Assembly (NCBI GenBank): GCA_009693255.1 | Contig: SHXQ01000001.1 | Coordinates: 98,511 to 162,510, forward strand | DNA from: Methylotenera sp. | Lineage (GTDB): Bacteria; Pseudomonadota; Gammaproteobacteria; Burkholderiales; Methylophilaceae | Length of the DNA stretch: 64,000 nucleotides | Reading direction: 5' to 3' | Shown: positions 51,437 to 56,677 of the stretch, one piece after another | Numbering within the stretch: the first letter of the stretch is position 1 | How the letters are laid out: the number at the start of each line of letters is the position of its first letter | Translations under genes and position numbers: made by a program | The notes under the pieces: model-generated | Told to the model about the DNA's origin: nothing | What the model saw: only the letters and a program-made list of their open reading frames with translations | The model's database searches: none

Positions 51437-53080
51437 TTACTGATGAGGTGAAGCTGGCATTGCCGTCGCATGCGCGGCATCTAAATTTTTATTTTCCAGT
51501 AAAAGGGGCTGCGCTAGATGGGCGCCATGAAATTCGTGGCATGACATGCAGCCACTGGCGATACGTTTGGATTTTGGACTGTTGCCAGAGTGGCATCTTA
51601 AGCAGGACTTTCTATCAGGCATAGCAACGTCTGCGCTCGTTTCAGATTTTTCTACTTGGTGGCAGGACTTGCATTGTTGTGTGCGATGCGATGCGTGATT
51701 GAAGCGTGCTTTGCTAAACCAATCCTGATTGATGTTGAGCGGCATGACGCGCCACGACAAGGCACTTTCTTGTGTAGGGATTTCATGGCAATAGGCACAG
51801 CCATCCGACTTTAACGATGCTGAGTACTGTTTGAATTTCTTTGGCGCTTGGACCTGCAGTGCGCTAATAACATTCTGCTCTGAGCCATGAGGCACAGTTA
51901 TTACTGCCTTGGCTGGACCAACCTGCAACTGTTTGGTGTGACACAGCAAGCAGTCTCGCTGGTAGGATACAGGCTTAAAGCGCATTTCTTTGCCTTCCTG
52001 TTGGTGGCAGTTAGTGCATGACAACTCGCGTACATCCCAGATTCCATTGGGCCCTTGCACTAGACCGACATGCTGGGAGTGGGGGAATTTTAGACCAGAT
52101 TTTTCAATCAAACGTGCTGTCTCAGCTTGCGGGATACGTTCGATATCTCCCCCCGTGCCATCTTTAGTGCGGCCCGTCTTGAATGTTAACTTGAAGTCTG
52201 GATGGTCACGATCAAAATCTTTAACATTAGGCAGTAAAGTTGTCGGACTGATAGACTTAATGTCGCCGTGACATTTGACGCACGTGCCGTTATCTTGCCG
52301 CGTGAGTGGGTAGGGCGCCTTATGCTCGCGATGACATTCAGCACAACGGACCCCGTCGGAAAATAGATGGGTAGATGTAAAGACACTTTTTTGTAAAGCG
52401 GGATTAGCAATGTGCGGTGCAGTGTCGCGATGGCAATTGACGCAGGCTTTGTTAGAAACTTTACGCGTTAACACTTCATGGCAGTTAAAACATTGTGCGC
52501 CAAAATGTAGGTGTGAATTGGAAATGTGACCTGGGCTCCATACGCGGTCAAAGCCAAAAGGCAATTGTGCCATAGCTTTTTGTAGTGGGGGAGCCAAGTT
52601 TTGCGCCAATGGCAATGCAAGGAAAATCAGCGCAATGAAGGCCGCCATCCATAGTGAAGCCCGTCGTTTGAAGCTTGAAGCGCCGCGTAGTGGTTCGTGA
52701 GTGCGCGACTTTAAATCTTGAAAATCATCGGGTAGGCGTTGTACCAATAGTAGAGAGATTGTTAGGTTGACATCGGGCGGTGCTGGCTCTACTTTCAATT
52801 GATAAGGACCAATGGTCACCAACTTACCGTGTGTCAGTTCAATGTTTTGCAGCACGCTACCATCTACCGCAAGTTCGCCGTTTACCGCAACCAGATGTAT
52901 CTGCCCACCATCCAATCTTTTGATTACCGCATGATGCATGGCTAGACGCGGATCAGGTAGATGTATGGTGCACTCTGCGCCGCGACCAATGGTAATTTCT
53001 TCTGCCGTGAGCGTGCGATAGCTGCGCGCTAAAACGCCGCGAGCATTATGAGAAATCTTGATTAAAAGACAATTAATCAT
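51437..53080 (-). CDS. FHA domain - TM - decaheme cytochrome c fusion protein
   Basis: N-terminal FHA-like ITIGRGAECTIHLPDPRLAMHHAVIKRL; FKRRASLWMAAFIALIFLALPLA TM; ten CxxCH motifs (CFNCH, CVNCH, CAECH, CVKCH, CTNCH, CLLCH, CAYCH, CKSCH, CLRCH, CMSCH). Confidence 0.92.
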   Translation of the reverse strand: MINCLLIKISHNARGVLARSYRTLTAEEITIGRGAECTIHLPDPRLAMHHAVIKRLDGGQIHLVAVNGELAVDGSVLQNIELTHGKLVTIGPYQLKVEPAPPDVNLTISLLLVQRLPDDFQDLKSRTHEPLRGASSFKRRASLWMAAFIALIFLALPLAQNLAPPLQKAMAQLPFGFDRVWSPGHISNSHLHFGAQCFNCHEVLTRKVSNKACVNCHRDTAPHIANPALQKSVFTSTHLFSDGVRCAECHREHKAPYPLTRQDNGTCVKCHGDIKSISPTTLLPNVKDFDRDHPDFKLTFKTGRTKDGTGGDIERIPQAETARLIEKSGLKFPHSQHVGLVQGPNGIWDVRELSCTNCHQQEGKEMRFKPVSYQRDCLLCHTKQLQVGPAKAVITVPHGSEQNVISALQVQAPKKFKQYSASLKSDGCAYCHEIPTQESALSWRVMPLNINQDWFSKARFNHASHRTQQCKSCHQVEKSETSADVAMPDRKSCLRCHSGNSPKSKRIASGCMSCHEFHGAHLAQPLLLENKNLDAAHATAMPASPHQ

Positions 53081-53096
53081 AAAGATACTTTATCAG

Positions 53097-53927
53097 TTAC
53101 CAATAAAAAAATATGGCAATAACATGTGCCACCATTGCTGTTAGCAATGCGACAGTGAAGGGGACGTGAAAATATAACCAGAAACCCATCCTAGCGCGGA
53201 ACATTAAATCCTGTCTTGCCCGTTTAACCAGGGACTCACGTCTCACCATGATGGAATAAAGATCACGGTATAATTTCCGTTGTTCGAGGGATAGTTCGCC
53301 ACCCAATACCGTTAGTTGTCGCACGACCGTTGCGGATGGACAATCCGGTTGAAATCCTCTAAGTTGCTCTAGCAAGCTAACACCGATAGAAGTTTCGCGA
53401 CAGGCGCGCGTTACGATGTTATTAATGTCATCGGGCATCATTAATGCAATTTGGCGTGCCAACTTATCGGTTTCTGCAATACGTAATAACAATCCATCCA
53501 AGCTATCTTCACCCATGTTTTCTGTCATGAGGCGCGGATAAATCATGTAAGCATAATTACCGAAAAAACCGCTAGTGACCACTATCAATAAAAGACCATA
53601 AGTGAGGCTGTGAATATTGAGGCCAAAATGGAATCCGCTATGTAGTGTCGCTATGACGGTCATAGCGGTACCCAGATAAATATGCGCAGATAACCAGCCC
53701 TGCGTGTTGCCGCGACTGCGGTAGCGTCGTTTGCGTATGCCGTACCAAGCCATCCAAAATACCATTGCCGCAGACAGCGTACCAAGACCATAACCTAGCC
53801 AGCTTCCACCGTAGTGACCGACCGCTGGTTCAAACAGCAGGAAGGCTAAAAGAGCGATGAGTATGACGATGACAGCTAATTTAAAGTAGCGGTAGTTCTT
53901 GTAGTCAAAAATATTGCTATGCTGCAT
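53097..53927 (-). CDS. putative b-type cytochrome / ferric-reductase-like membrane protein
   Basis: Multi-TM with in-helix His (GWLSAHIYLGTAMTVIATLHSGFHFGL; YFHVPFTVALLTAMVAHVIAIFFYW); same operon. Confidence 0.75.
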   Translation of the reverse strand: MQHSNIFDYKNYRYFKLAVIVILIALLAFLLFEPAVGHYGGSWLGYGLGTLSAAMVFWMAWYGIRKRRYRSRGNTQGWLSAHIYLGTAMTVIATLHSGFHFGLNIHSLTYGLLLIVVTSGFFGNYAYMIYPRLMTENMGEDSLDGLLLRIAETDKLARQIALMMPDDINNIVTRACRETSIGVSLLEQLRGFQPDCPSATVVRQLTVLGGELSLEQRKLYRDLYSIMVRRESLVKRARQDLMFRARMGFWLYFHVPFTVALLTAMVAHVIAIFFYW

Positions 53928-53940
53928 CTGGTTATTCTCT

Positions 53941-56457
53941 CTAATTTCCGTCTGAACCTAGTAAAGTGGCTTCGCCAGAGGTGCCGCCAGCATAGCTGAG
54001 TAACTCCTCTGGTTTAACGCGCAACGCCGCCCCTACTGGACAAGCGCGGACGCATACCGGACCATCGACAATATCTTTGCACATGTCACACTTCACCGCC
54101 ACTTTAGGTCCATCAACGACAGCTAAAGATTTAGGCTTAATACCAAGTAGCATCTGCCACAGGCTAGGTTCAGGCTGATCATGGATTACTGCCATTTGAA
54201 TCACATCGTAAGGGCAATTTACTTGGCAGTTACCACAACCGATGCAGCTGTCATCAATGTACACTTCACCATGTGGTGCGCGATGAATCGCGTCGGGTGG
54301 GCAATCTTTCATGCAGTGGGGATGTTCGCAGTGGCGGCAAGATGTGGGTACGCGAATATTTGCAAAAATCGGACCAGCATCCCGATCTAGTCGAGTTGCG
54401 CCACCATGCGTGTCGGCACAAGCCTGTTCGCAGTGATTGCAACGCACACATAACGACTCGTCGATGAGCAATACGTCGGTCGCTTCGCCTACCCCTTGTT
54501 GAATTAAGAAAGAAATTAGATTGGATGGGGTGGATTGCGTTGCGATAGAAGCCTTGCTATCAAAAGCCGTCTCCAGTTGCTGACGATTTTCCTGATCTTG
54601 CAAGTGTTGCAGGTAGCGCGCATCGAGTTCACCGCGAATTTCAGGATTGCGCGCAATGATGTCTCGCATACGCCCAGCTTCGATTAACACAGCGTCCGTC
54701 GCAATGGCGGCGCGAACCGTCGCATAGCGTGGCTCGCCAGAAACCAGTGACATTTCGCCTACATAATGGCCAGCCGCCACATAAAGTAGTACAACTTCTC
54801 TGCCGCCTATCAGGCGTGAAACGGTGACTGAGCCACTTTGAATTAAATATAGACCGTCTGCCTCATCCCCTTCATGAAATAGCTCTTCGCCAGCCGCATA
54901 GCTTTTGAGTGTGGCGTTATTAGCAACGTCATTAAGATCTTCTTCGCTTAGCGATAGGCCAATGCAGAGATGCACAATTGTCTTAATCGCGACTTCATTG
55001 AGTATGCGGCGCATAGACTGCACTGAATCAATGAGCTTTTGCATGACACGCCTAGGGGTTTCTATCAGCACGCACGGCGCACTAGCGCGAACCGTGCCAG
55101 CTCGGCGTCGGCCTGACACCAGCGCCAACTCGCCAAAAAATTCACCAGCTTTGAGTGTGGCATCTGGCGCACCATCATCATCAATCAGAACATCCAGCTC
55201 GCCTTCAATAATTAAGTAAAATGTGGTGCTGTAATCATTTCTTTTGAAAATGACATCACCTGCTTTCGCTAGTAATATATTACTTTCCAGCACCAGTTCT
55301 CGTAGCTGTAAGGTGTTAAGCATCGCCAGTAAGGGCACACTTTTACGAATTTTTTCTAATACATCCTCAACGCCACGGTCTGAGCAGAAGTTTGCAAATT
55401 TCTCACGCAATAGCGCGTTATCGGCGGGTTCAACAGGGTTGCCTAGTATGTATTCAATGACTTCGTAACCCTGATTGATGCCCTGCTTAATCAGCGGGTA
55501 ACCAGCCAACGCGCCAATGATATAAAGGCTGGGGACACTTGATTCGTAATGTGCGGACAGTTGAGGGAGTGCCTCTAGATCCGGGGCTGAGAAGCCGATG
55601 CCAAAGCTTTCTAGTTGCGCGCGTGATGGCAGTGCGCCAAGTCGCGCAATGACTCGATGGCACGGAATGCGTTCAACACCATTCGGCGTACTAGCAAACA
55701 CGGTAATTGGAAATTCGCCTGTGCTATTCTGTTCAATAGATTGTGGTTTGGTTTCTAGTAGCCAGTCCAGCACACCCTTCATGTGGGCATCGGTTAATTG
55801 GCTTAAATTGCTGTCCTTACAATTACTGAAGTCTTCAGCGCGGTTTAATATAATGACTTGGTTGCGACCGGTCAGCGCCAGCGCATTTTCGACGCCGCTA
55901 TCGCCGCCACCGATGACCACGATAGTCTCTTCTTGGTAGGCTTGTGGGTCATCGAGTTGATATTGAATTTGAGGTAAGTCGCCGCCAGGAATGTCCAGTT
56001 TTCGCAAATTGCCTTGCACACCAACGGCGAGTACCACATGATCAGCGCTTAATAGGCTGCCATCCGCCAGTTCCACTTCAAGTGACTTTGTGTTGCGGCG
56101 CAAACCTACAACCTTAGCGCCGTAGCGCACATTAACACGATATTCGGCTATCGTTTTTTCCCAAGTATCAAGCACGGTTTCACGTAGGGCGGCAGTAAAT
56201 GGTAGTGGACTGCGAAGCGGCAAGCCTCGTGGTTCAGCCATGACCAGCTTGCCTCGCTGATAATTTCGAATAGTGTTTGCGGGCGCCTCTTCGGCCTCTA
56301 GCAGTAAGTAGGAAACATTTTGCTCGGTGGCATGTACGGCAGCAGATAGCCCGCTGGGTCCGGCGCCTATAATAATGAGCTTGAAATGTTTTGGTGTGAC
56401 AATTCCAGTCTTACTGCTAGTTTTTTGCACTATATTCGGCGCTAGAGTTGTTACCAT
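53941..56457 (-). CDS. FAD/NAD(P) oxidoreductase - two cNMP-binding domains - four-cluster ferredoxin fusion
   Basis: GAGPSGLSAAVHATEQ (FAD), VIGGGDSGVENALAL (NAD(P)), two CAP_ED-like domains (GEFFGELALVSGRRRAGTVRA; GEMSLVSGEPRYATVRA), 16 Cys in a DmsB-like pattern. Confidence 0.93.
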   Translation of the reverse strand: MVTTLAPNIVQKTSSKTGIVTPKHFKLIIIGAGPSGLSAAVHATEQNVSYLLLEAEEAPANTIRNYQRGKLVMAEPRGLPLRSPLPFTAALRETVLDTWEKTIAEYRVNVRYGAKVVGLRRNTKSLEVELADGSLLSADHVVLAVGVQGNLRKLDIPGGDLPQIQYQLDDPQAYQEETIVVIGGGDSGVENALALTGRNQVIILNRAEDFSNCKDSNLSQLTDAHMKGVLDWLLETKPQSIEQNSTGEFPITVFASTPNGVERIPCHRVIARLGALPSRAQLESFGIGFSAPDLEALPQLSAHYESSVPSLYIIGALAGYPLIKQGINQGYEVIEYILGNPVEPADNALLREKFANFCSDRGVEDVLEKIRKSVPLLAMLNTLQLRELVLESNILLAKAGDVIFKRNDYSTTFYLIIEGELDVLIDDDGAPDATLKAGEFFGELALVSGRRRAGTVRASAPCVLIETPRRVMQKLIDSVQSMRRILNEVAIKTIVHLCIGLSLSEEDLNDVANNATLKSYAAGEELFHEGDEADGLYLIQSGSVTVSRLIGGREVVLLYVAAGHYVGEMSLVSGEPRYATVRAAIATDAVLIEAGRMRDIIARNPEIRGELDARYLQHLQDQENRQQLETAFDSKASIATQSTPSNLISFLIQQGVGEATDVLLIDESLCVRCNHCEQACADTHGGATRLDRDAGPIFANIRVPTSCRHCEHPHCMKDCPPDAIHRAPHGEVYIDDSCIGCGNCQVNCPYDVIQMAVIHDQPEPSLWQMLLGIKPKSLAVVDGPKVAVKCDMCKDIVDGPVCVRACPVGAALRVKPEELLSYAGGTSGEATLLGSDGN

Positions 56458-56661: not shown

Positions 56662-56677
56662 GTTACAAAAATGTAAC
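56662..56677. promoter_or_regulatory. perfect inverted repeat GTTACA-AAAA-TGTAAC
   Basis: 6-4-6 palindrome just upstream of the putative -35 of the cox-side promoter. Confidence 0.7.

Follow-up and report, generated by a model that had tools for sequence, protein, structure and literature searches.

The window analyzed here, a stretch of 64,000 nucleotides from Methylotenera sp. (GenBank assembly GCA_009693255.1, contig SHXQ01000001.1, positions 98,511 to 162,510), encodes three proteins denoted throughout as A (838 amino acids), B (276 amino acids) and C (547 amino acids) which, judged from sequence, constitute a real, widespread and conserved electron-transfer module. The source is a metagenome-assembled genome (MAG; G000) of 1.4 Mb that is 85% complete, and the named relatives in the genus are Methylotenera. 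The interpretation that is considered probable is that A, B and C form one NAD(P)H-linked electron relay complex at the inner membrane. For conduits of PCC4 type, and more distantly those of PCC3 type, this complex would form the core at the inner membrane and in the periplasm; Methylophilaceae and most Gallionellaceae have a porin-less form. Outward flow is preferred, and two cyclic nucleotide monophosphate (cNMP)-binding domains probably gate or assemble A. Electrons would pass in the cytosol from NAD(P)H to the FAD of A and then through four [4Fe-4S] clusters, from these clusters to two stacked b hemes held by transmembrane (TM) helices TM3 and TM5 of B, and from the b hemes to ten bis-His c hemes of C in the periplasm. 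In other bacteria, the outer-membrane conduit that would receive the electrons is interchangeable. The trio of Methylophilaceae and most Gallionellaceae has no outer-membrane partner beside it, and soluble cytochromes of the periplasm are therefore the most likely electron-exchange partners of C there. An earlier note on this DNA had traced the same path from cytosol through membrane to periplasm, and the domains, topology, synteny and gene fusion described below support it.

The three minus-strand open reading frames are tightly spaced as that note described, with gaps of 13 nt between A and B and 16 nt between B and C. Protein A matches Pfam families Pyr_redox_3/Pyr_redox_2, two cNMP_binding domains (1e-37), and Fer4 families including Fer4_11 (PF13247). 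Residue conservation was computed on 57 homologs of A and 73 homologs of C. The 16 ferredoxin cysteines that had been counted in A fall in four quartets within residues 670-806 and all 16 are invariant in the 57 homologs. Glu443 and Arg452 in the phosphate-binding cassette of the first cNMP domain also are retained in 57/57 homologs, and in the cassette of the second domain Glu568 is retained in 57/57 and Arg577 in 55/57. Both cassettes keep the Gly-Glu and Arg that signify cNMP binding. Assignment of A as a thioredoxin or bacillithiol disulfide reductase was rejected as there is no redox CXXC in residues 1-350. Separately, Cys266 in the NAD(P)/FAD domain (window about 55660) is invariant in 57/57 homologs although no CXXC is present there. 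A role in anti-phage defence also was discarded, as the PADLOC matches of A are only to the cNMP domain which is common with Pycsar effectors.

Protein B has no significant Pfam family and no match to FRD (PF01794). Five TM helices are predicted, and the structure model is helical (pLDDT 80). The positive-inside rule places the N-terminus inside and the C-terminus outside: loops 2 and 4 contain 6 and 18 lysine and arginine residues, respectively, and the outer loops none. Four intramembrane histidines, arranged as two HX13H motifs, are kept in every full-length homolog aligned, as are the motifs WX3HX13H in TM3 and TM5 and SGXXG in TM4. The earlier note had called B a His-rich b-type membrane protein; its reading as a di-heme b-type relay is supported, with both hemes predicted. 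Based on the orientation of B, H82 and H254 would ligate the inner heme, and H96 and H268 the outer heme. Neither comparison of the B model with viral structures nor of the B sequence with the PDB produced a useful match. An apparent fusion of B in locus L036 was dismissed as the 555-residue open reading frame reflects an over-long start.

Protein C matches the Pfam families FHA (5e-8), Cytochrom_c3_2, Cytochrome_C7 and Paired_CXXCH. The ten hemes proposed previously correspond to ten CXXCH motifs, from which heme loading is predicted, and the ten heme sites are kept across the 73 homologs: 63 have ten CXXCH, eight from Nitrosomonadales have CX4CH at heme 6, one is short of one ligand histidine, and one has masked bases. 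The CX4CH variant (CQQSxCH) was noted in L122, L124, L126, L128, L134, L144, L152 and L168, as well as in L187:9004-10656. Exactly ten histidines outside the heme motifs are invariant (190, 223, 253, 293, 334, 337, 398, 462, 465 and 518). As this is the number that ten bis-His hemes require, all ten hemes probably are bis-His, which speaks for C as a wire rather than an enzyme. The sequence predictions also bear out the proposed topology, in which KRR precedes a single TM helix (placed at about residues 141-159 by one prediction and at 136-162 by another) such that the FHA domain is cytosolic and the hemes are periplasmic.

The genetic context of the trio was assessed in a scan of named genomes from which the best 80 loci were taken; by title these are from alpha-, beta- and gammaproteobacteria, and the counts are skewed to window-like loci. 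Synteny was testable for C in 78 loci and for A in 79. The gene for C is adjacent to that for B in 78/78 loci and the gene for A in 61/79; when the Methylotenera group is set aside, the values are 48/48 and 29/47, respectively. Gaps typically are 3-30 nt, or the genes overlap. The conserved synteny that the earlier note proposed to look for across Betaproteobacteria extends well beyond these into alpha- and gammaproteobacteria. In one genome, A and B are fused in a single frame of 1118 amino acids (L187:4850-8206). Retention of the 16 ferredoxin cysteines of A and the ten heme sites of C, together with the invariable flanking of B by C, argues that the three-gene arrangement is not due to chance. 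Among 61 near relatives, B is present in 35 at any match strength; in a class sample of 276 genomes about a dozen carry a close homolog, and an even draw of 397 genomes across the phylum gave 19 with B at E 1e-15. The trio is found in Gallionellaceae, methylotrophs and marine alphaproteobacteria, with one locus titled as coming from a biocathode MAG. Cultivated carriers by record title include Methylotenera oryzisoli La3113 and Oceanibacterium hippocampi CECT 7691.

The closest published counterparts are the PCC3 and PCC4 clusters predicted in 2017, of which PCC4 is so far no more than a prediction (He et al., 2017; PMC5566968). In that work the inner-membrane protein (IMP) of both clusters has five TM helices, SGXXG in TM4 and WX3HX13H in TM3 and TM5, and is likened to the two-heme domain of ferric reductase/NOX proteins. 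Locus L189, which was assigned as PCC4-like by its match to the published text description of PCC4 subgroup II, encodes in order a porin, an NAD/2Fe-2S flavoprotein, a tetraheme cytochrome, a protein with a cNMP domain and four 4Fe-4S clusters (PF13247), an IMP, and a decaheme cytochrome. Profiles of A, B and C match the last three of these genes in the same order (E 1.4e-51, 2.9e-17 and 1.4e-19). As in subgroup II so described, the PF13247 iron-sulfur gene lies directly upstream of the IMP gene (by 13 nt in the window), whose product has five TM helices, SGXXG and two copies of WX3HX13H. The trio also has a ten-heme periplasmic cytochrome, which is homologous to the L189 decaheme. The differences are that A includes a FAD/NAD(P) domain absent from the L189 iron-sulfur protein; that the FHA domain of C takes the place of a Cys-rich N-terminus in the L189 decaheme; and that no porin or 4- or 5-heme cytochrome gene adjoins the window trio, whose neighbors are queA and cox genes (names assigned by eye). 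The missing components are present in L190 (the same place as L071), where the order is 5-heme, porin, 4-heme, 4-heme, A, B, C, and where the porin is 48% identical to that of L189. In view of this porin identity and the shared gene order, the window trio is best read as a PCC4-type inner-membrane core with two domain changes, namely fusion of a flavin/NAD(P) domain to A and of FHA to C.

The relationship to PCC3 is more distant. Comparison loci were classed as PCC3-type by motif and gene content, and B aligns over its full length with a PCC3-type IMP profile of 13 sequences (hhalign probability 99.1, E 1.5e-18) and shares its motifs. In contrast to C with ten hemes, the cytochromes of PCC3-type loci have 12-27 heme motifs where the sequence is covered, and cNMP and FHA domains are lacking in these loci. 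In the published PCC3 cluster the periplasmic cytochrome has some 20 hemes or more, and a porin and an extracellular cytochrome are encoded by separate genes; the PCC3 IMP also is reported in Hoover 2023 (PMC10734462) and in Sideroxydans CL21 (PMC12442390). No second IMP of PCC3 type was found in G000. An NAD(P)H-type flavoprotein is encoded next to the PCC3-type IMP gene in 14 of 22 short-flank loci, which suggests NAD(P)H input to PCC3 also. A TrxR/YpdA-like FAD protein flanks the PCC3-type IMP in L034, L035, L037, L050, L052 and L054, and likewise in L058, L060, L061, L063, L064 and L067; that of L034 has two 4Fe-4S motifs by eye. The flanking FAD protein is not mentioned in the published PCC3 description consulted.

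Certain observations weigh against an NAD(P)H-linked A-B-C complex. The B model has no match among PDB folds (best E 0.12), so that comparison with FRD/NOX rests on motif spacing, and confidence is low for the heme portion of the C model. Moreover, A is out of reach in several Burkholderiales loci that possess B-C, and was not found in G039, a 100% complete genome. B-C can work without A and, on the basis of these last two observations, may take electrons elsewhere, perhaps from quinol. These two observations would fit a quinone-linked relay, with electron exchange between B and the quinone pool and with A serving as a regulatory subunit or a side input. He et al. (2017; PMC5566968) proposed such a quinone-active cytochrome b role for the IMPs of PCC3 and PCC4. 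This alternative is nevertheless judged unlikely. The adjacency of A and its fusion to B in one genome speak against it, as does the presence in A of a FAD/NAD(P) domain and four-cluster chain with all ligands invariant. In addition, NAD(P)H-type flavoproteins accompany the IMPs of both PCC3 and PCC4 types, including that of L189. Taken with the A-B fusion, this association points to NAD(P)H and not the quinone pool as the probable cytosolic partner, contrary to the 2017 model.

Outside the Methylotenera group the trio is linked with outer-membrane partners of at least three kinds. In many alpha-, gamma- and betaproteobacteria an extended cluster continues from the trio to genes for an HbpS-like protein, a barrel, and a decaheme cytochrome of roughly 1250 amino acids with an LVIVD-like part, often also with a C554-type tetraheme. 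The barrel likely is an outer-membrane protein; it belongs to no family and its C-terminus ends in Tyr. This set looks like an undescribed outer-membrane conduit. The extended cluster was seen in L135, L077, L157 and other loci, and its decaheme has a weak local match to ExtM of a selenite/tellurite operon. The second kind is the PCC4-type porin of L190, and the third is an MtoAB-MtrC set. In the Gallionellales MAG locus L134 (7500-19715), the trio is followed on the same strand by genes for a monoheme cytochrome, a DmsE/MtoA decaheme, an MtrB/PioB porin and an OmcA/MtrC decaheme, which by predicted gene content is a complete cytosol-to-surface path. The trio in L134 adjoins this cluster where the inner-membrane donor of Mto/Mtr systems (MtoA/MtrA-MtoB/MtrB-MtrC with MtoD or CymA) is expected. 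It differs from that donor in that A, B and C have no NapC/CymA-type match, and A-B-C account for the inner-membrane side only.

Loci of the Methylotenera group, and most of those from Gallionellaceae, have nothing comparable near the trio. The extended-cluster barrel and surface cytochrome are absent from 15/15 Methylotenera-group genomes tested, and MtrB/PioB from 18/19. None of the three was found in G000, an 85% complete MAG in which the PCC4 porin itself was not searched for. When a tree was built on B, the compact loci of Nitrosomonadales type grouped as a single clade with good support (100/95), nested within the extended loci; the outer-membrane part therefore probably was lost or moved in the compact loci. 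A broader proposal can be advanced tentatively: that the trio is a cNMP-gated exporter which connects the NAD(P)H pool directly to the envelope without quinones, that it serves as a standard inner-membrane adaptor for three or more outer-membrane conduits unrelated to each other, and that in Methylophilaceae it has turned into an outlet for reductant to the periplasm that lacks a porin.

The direction of electron flow also was considered. Electron export from NAD(P)H is favored, as its potential is about -0.32 V and the membrane potential would favor exit of electrons. Uptake, in which Fe(II) or other outside donors reduce C, then B, then A and finally NAD(P)+ by reverse electron flow, would suit the occurrence of the trio in Gallionellaceae, including the locus adjoining an Mto/Mtr-type conduit, and in the biocathode MAG. 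It also would suit the FHA-decaheme protein reported in 27/87 Gallionellaceae Fe oxidizers (Hoover 2023, PMC10734462). As this direction would have to overcome both the redox gradient and the membrane potential, the cluster has no energy-coupling subunit, and methylotrophs and marine alphaproteobacteria also possess the trio, uptake is regarded as improbable.

The earlier note had suggested that electron flow is gated by both a second messenger and protein phosphorylation. The first part stays plausible: the cNMP cassettes are intact and class III cyclase genes are present in the genus. The match to a class III nucleotide cyclase in G000 (G000:C7:46518-47048) has an internal TAG, and the matches in close relatives do not. 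The second part is weakened. The FHA part of the C model is well predicted (pLDDT about 90) with GarA and OdhI as PDB fold matches (E about 1e-5). However, the phosphothreonine signature is not conserved among the 73 homologs: GR is found in 73/73, His50 in 61/73, Ser in 14/73 and Asn67 in 30/73. The phosphate-contacting Ser is Ala47 in the window protein, and the domain is missing in some homologs, for example in L077. FHA as a phosphothreonine switch was therefore rejected. Ser/Thr kinases were found in six near-complete relatives and none was found in G000, at 85% completeness. Both GarA and OdhI belong to the FHA proteins and dock metabolic enzymes, and by analogy a docking role is the better guess for FHA in C. 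A redox sensor or signalling relay, in which A reads NAD(P)H/FAD state and cNMP, C reads periplasmic redox state and FHA docks a signalling partner, would accommodate the intact cassettes, the FHA fold and the cyclases, and is very unlikely given that ten bis-His hemes and linkage to porin-cytochrome clusters indicate transport and that FHA is neither conserved in its phospho-signature nor always present.

The claim in the earlier note that no characterized system has this architecture holds in the literature searched, mostly without subscription journals, where no characterized trio or PCC4 member was found; however, the homologous PCC3/PCC4 kind had been predicted in 2017 and the FHA-decaheme had been sighted in 2023. 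Searches for FHA with multiheme cytochromes returned only Hoover 2023 (PMC10734462), Table 1 of which includes a 'Forkhead-associated protein' with 10 hemes (cluster 403). It has the same heme count, FHA annotation and Gallionellaceae occurrence as C, the identity of the two being drawn from description and not sequence, and is classed there as 'Other' without partners, topology or function. FRD/NOX proteins are a works-like analogy, with HX13H on TM3 and TM5 and NAD(P)H-flavin input; they differ in that B has no FRD family or fold match, the flavin fold of A is different, and the trio has four extra Fe-S clusters and ten c hemes. The new elements are the fused NAD(P)H-flavin domain, the fused FHA, the multiple outer-membrane partners, and the porin-less form.

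Features of the trio are compiled in Table 1. A link to the neighboring cox operon was rejected, as it is shared by only 5/32 Methylotenera-group loci. No conserved FNR/CRP site was found upstream. A perfect inverted repeat, GTTACATTTTTGTAAC, is located at window positions 56662-56677 between A and the divergent cox genes and is kept in three close relatives; it is a possible regulator site.

Table 1. Positions of the three genes and their domains and motifs in the window.
Feature	Position	Strand	Evidence
Gene A: FAD/NAD(P)-cNMP-cNMP-4x[4Fe-4S] oxidoreductase, 838 aa	53941..56457	-	ORF, Pfam, motifs
A: TrxR/YpdA-type FAD + NAD(P) domain, residues 25-330	55468..56385	-	Pfam, alignment
A: cNMP-binding domain 1, phosphate cassette FGELALVSGRRRAGTV (residues 441-456)	55018..55347	-	Pfam, alignment
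A: cNMP-binding domain 2, cassette VGEMSLVSGEPRYATV	54583..54945	-	Pfam, alignment
A: four [4Fe-4S] ferredoxin Cys quartets, residues 670-806, Fer4_11/PF13247 type	54040..54450	-	
Gene B: five-helix inner-membrane protein, 276 aa, predicted two b hemes; PCC3/PCC4 IMP homolog	53097..53927	-	
B: TM3 motif WX3HX13H (W78, H82, H96)	53640..53696	-	
B: TM4 motif SGXXG (SGFFG, residues 119-123)	53559..53573	-	
B: TM5 motif WX3HX13H (W250, H254, H268)	53124..53180	-	
Gene C: FHA - TM - decaheme c-type cytochrome, 547 aa	51437..53080	-	
C: FHA domain, cytosolic by topology	52808..52996	-	Pfam, structure model
C: single TM helix, residues 136-162, after KRR	52595..52675	-	
C: decaheme domain, ten CXXCH + ten invariant distal His	51527..52513	-	

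In extracellular electron transfer, the inner-membrane steps that are known, for instance those of CymA-type proteins, depend on quinones. If the NAD(P)H-linked relay is correct, the trio would be a direct wire from NAD(P)H to the envelope with second-messenger input. The unexplained PCC3/PCC4 conduits of iron oxidizers would thereby gain a partner at the inner membrane and a redox partner, and methylotrophs of low-oxygen lakes a candidate outlet for electrons. Its presence in three proteobacterial classes, including cultivated strains, opens the trio to testing.

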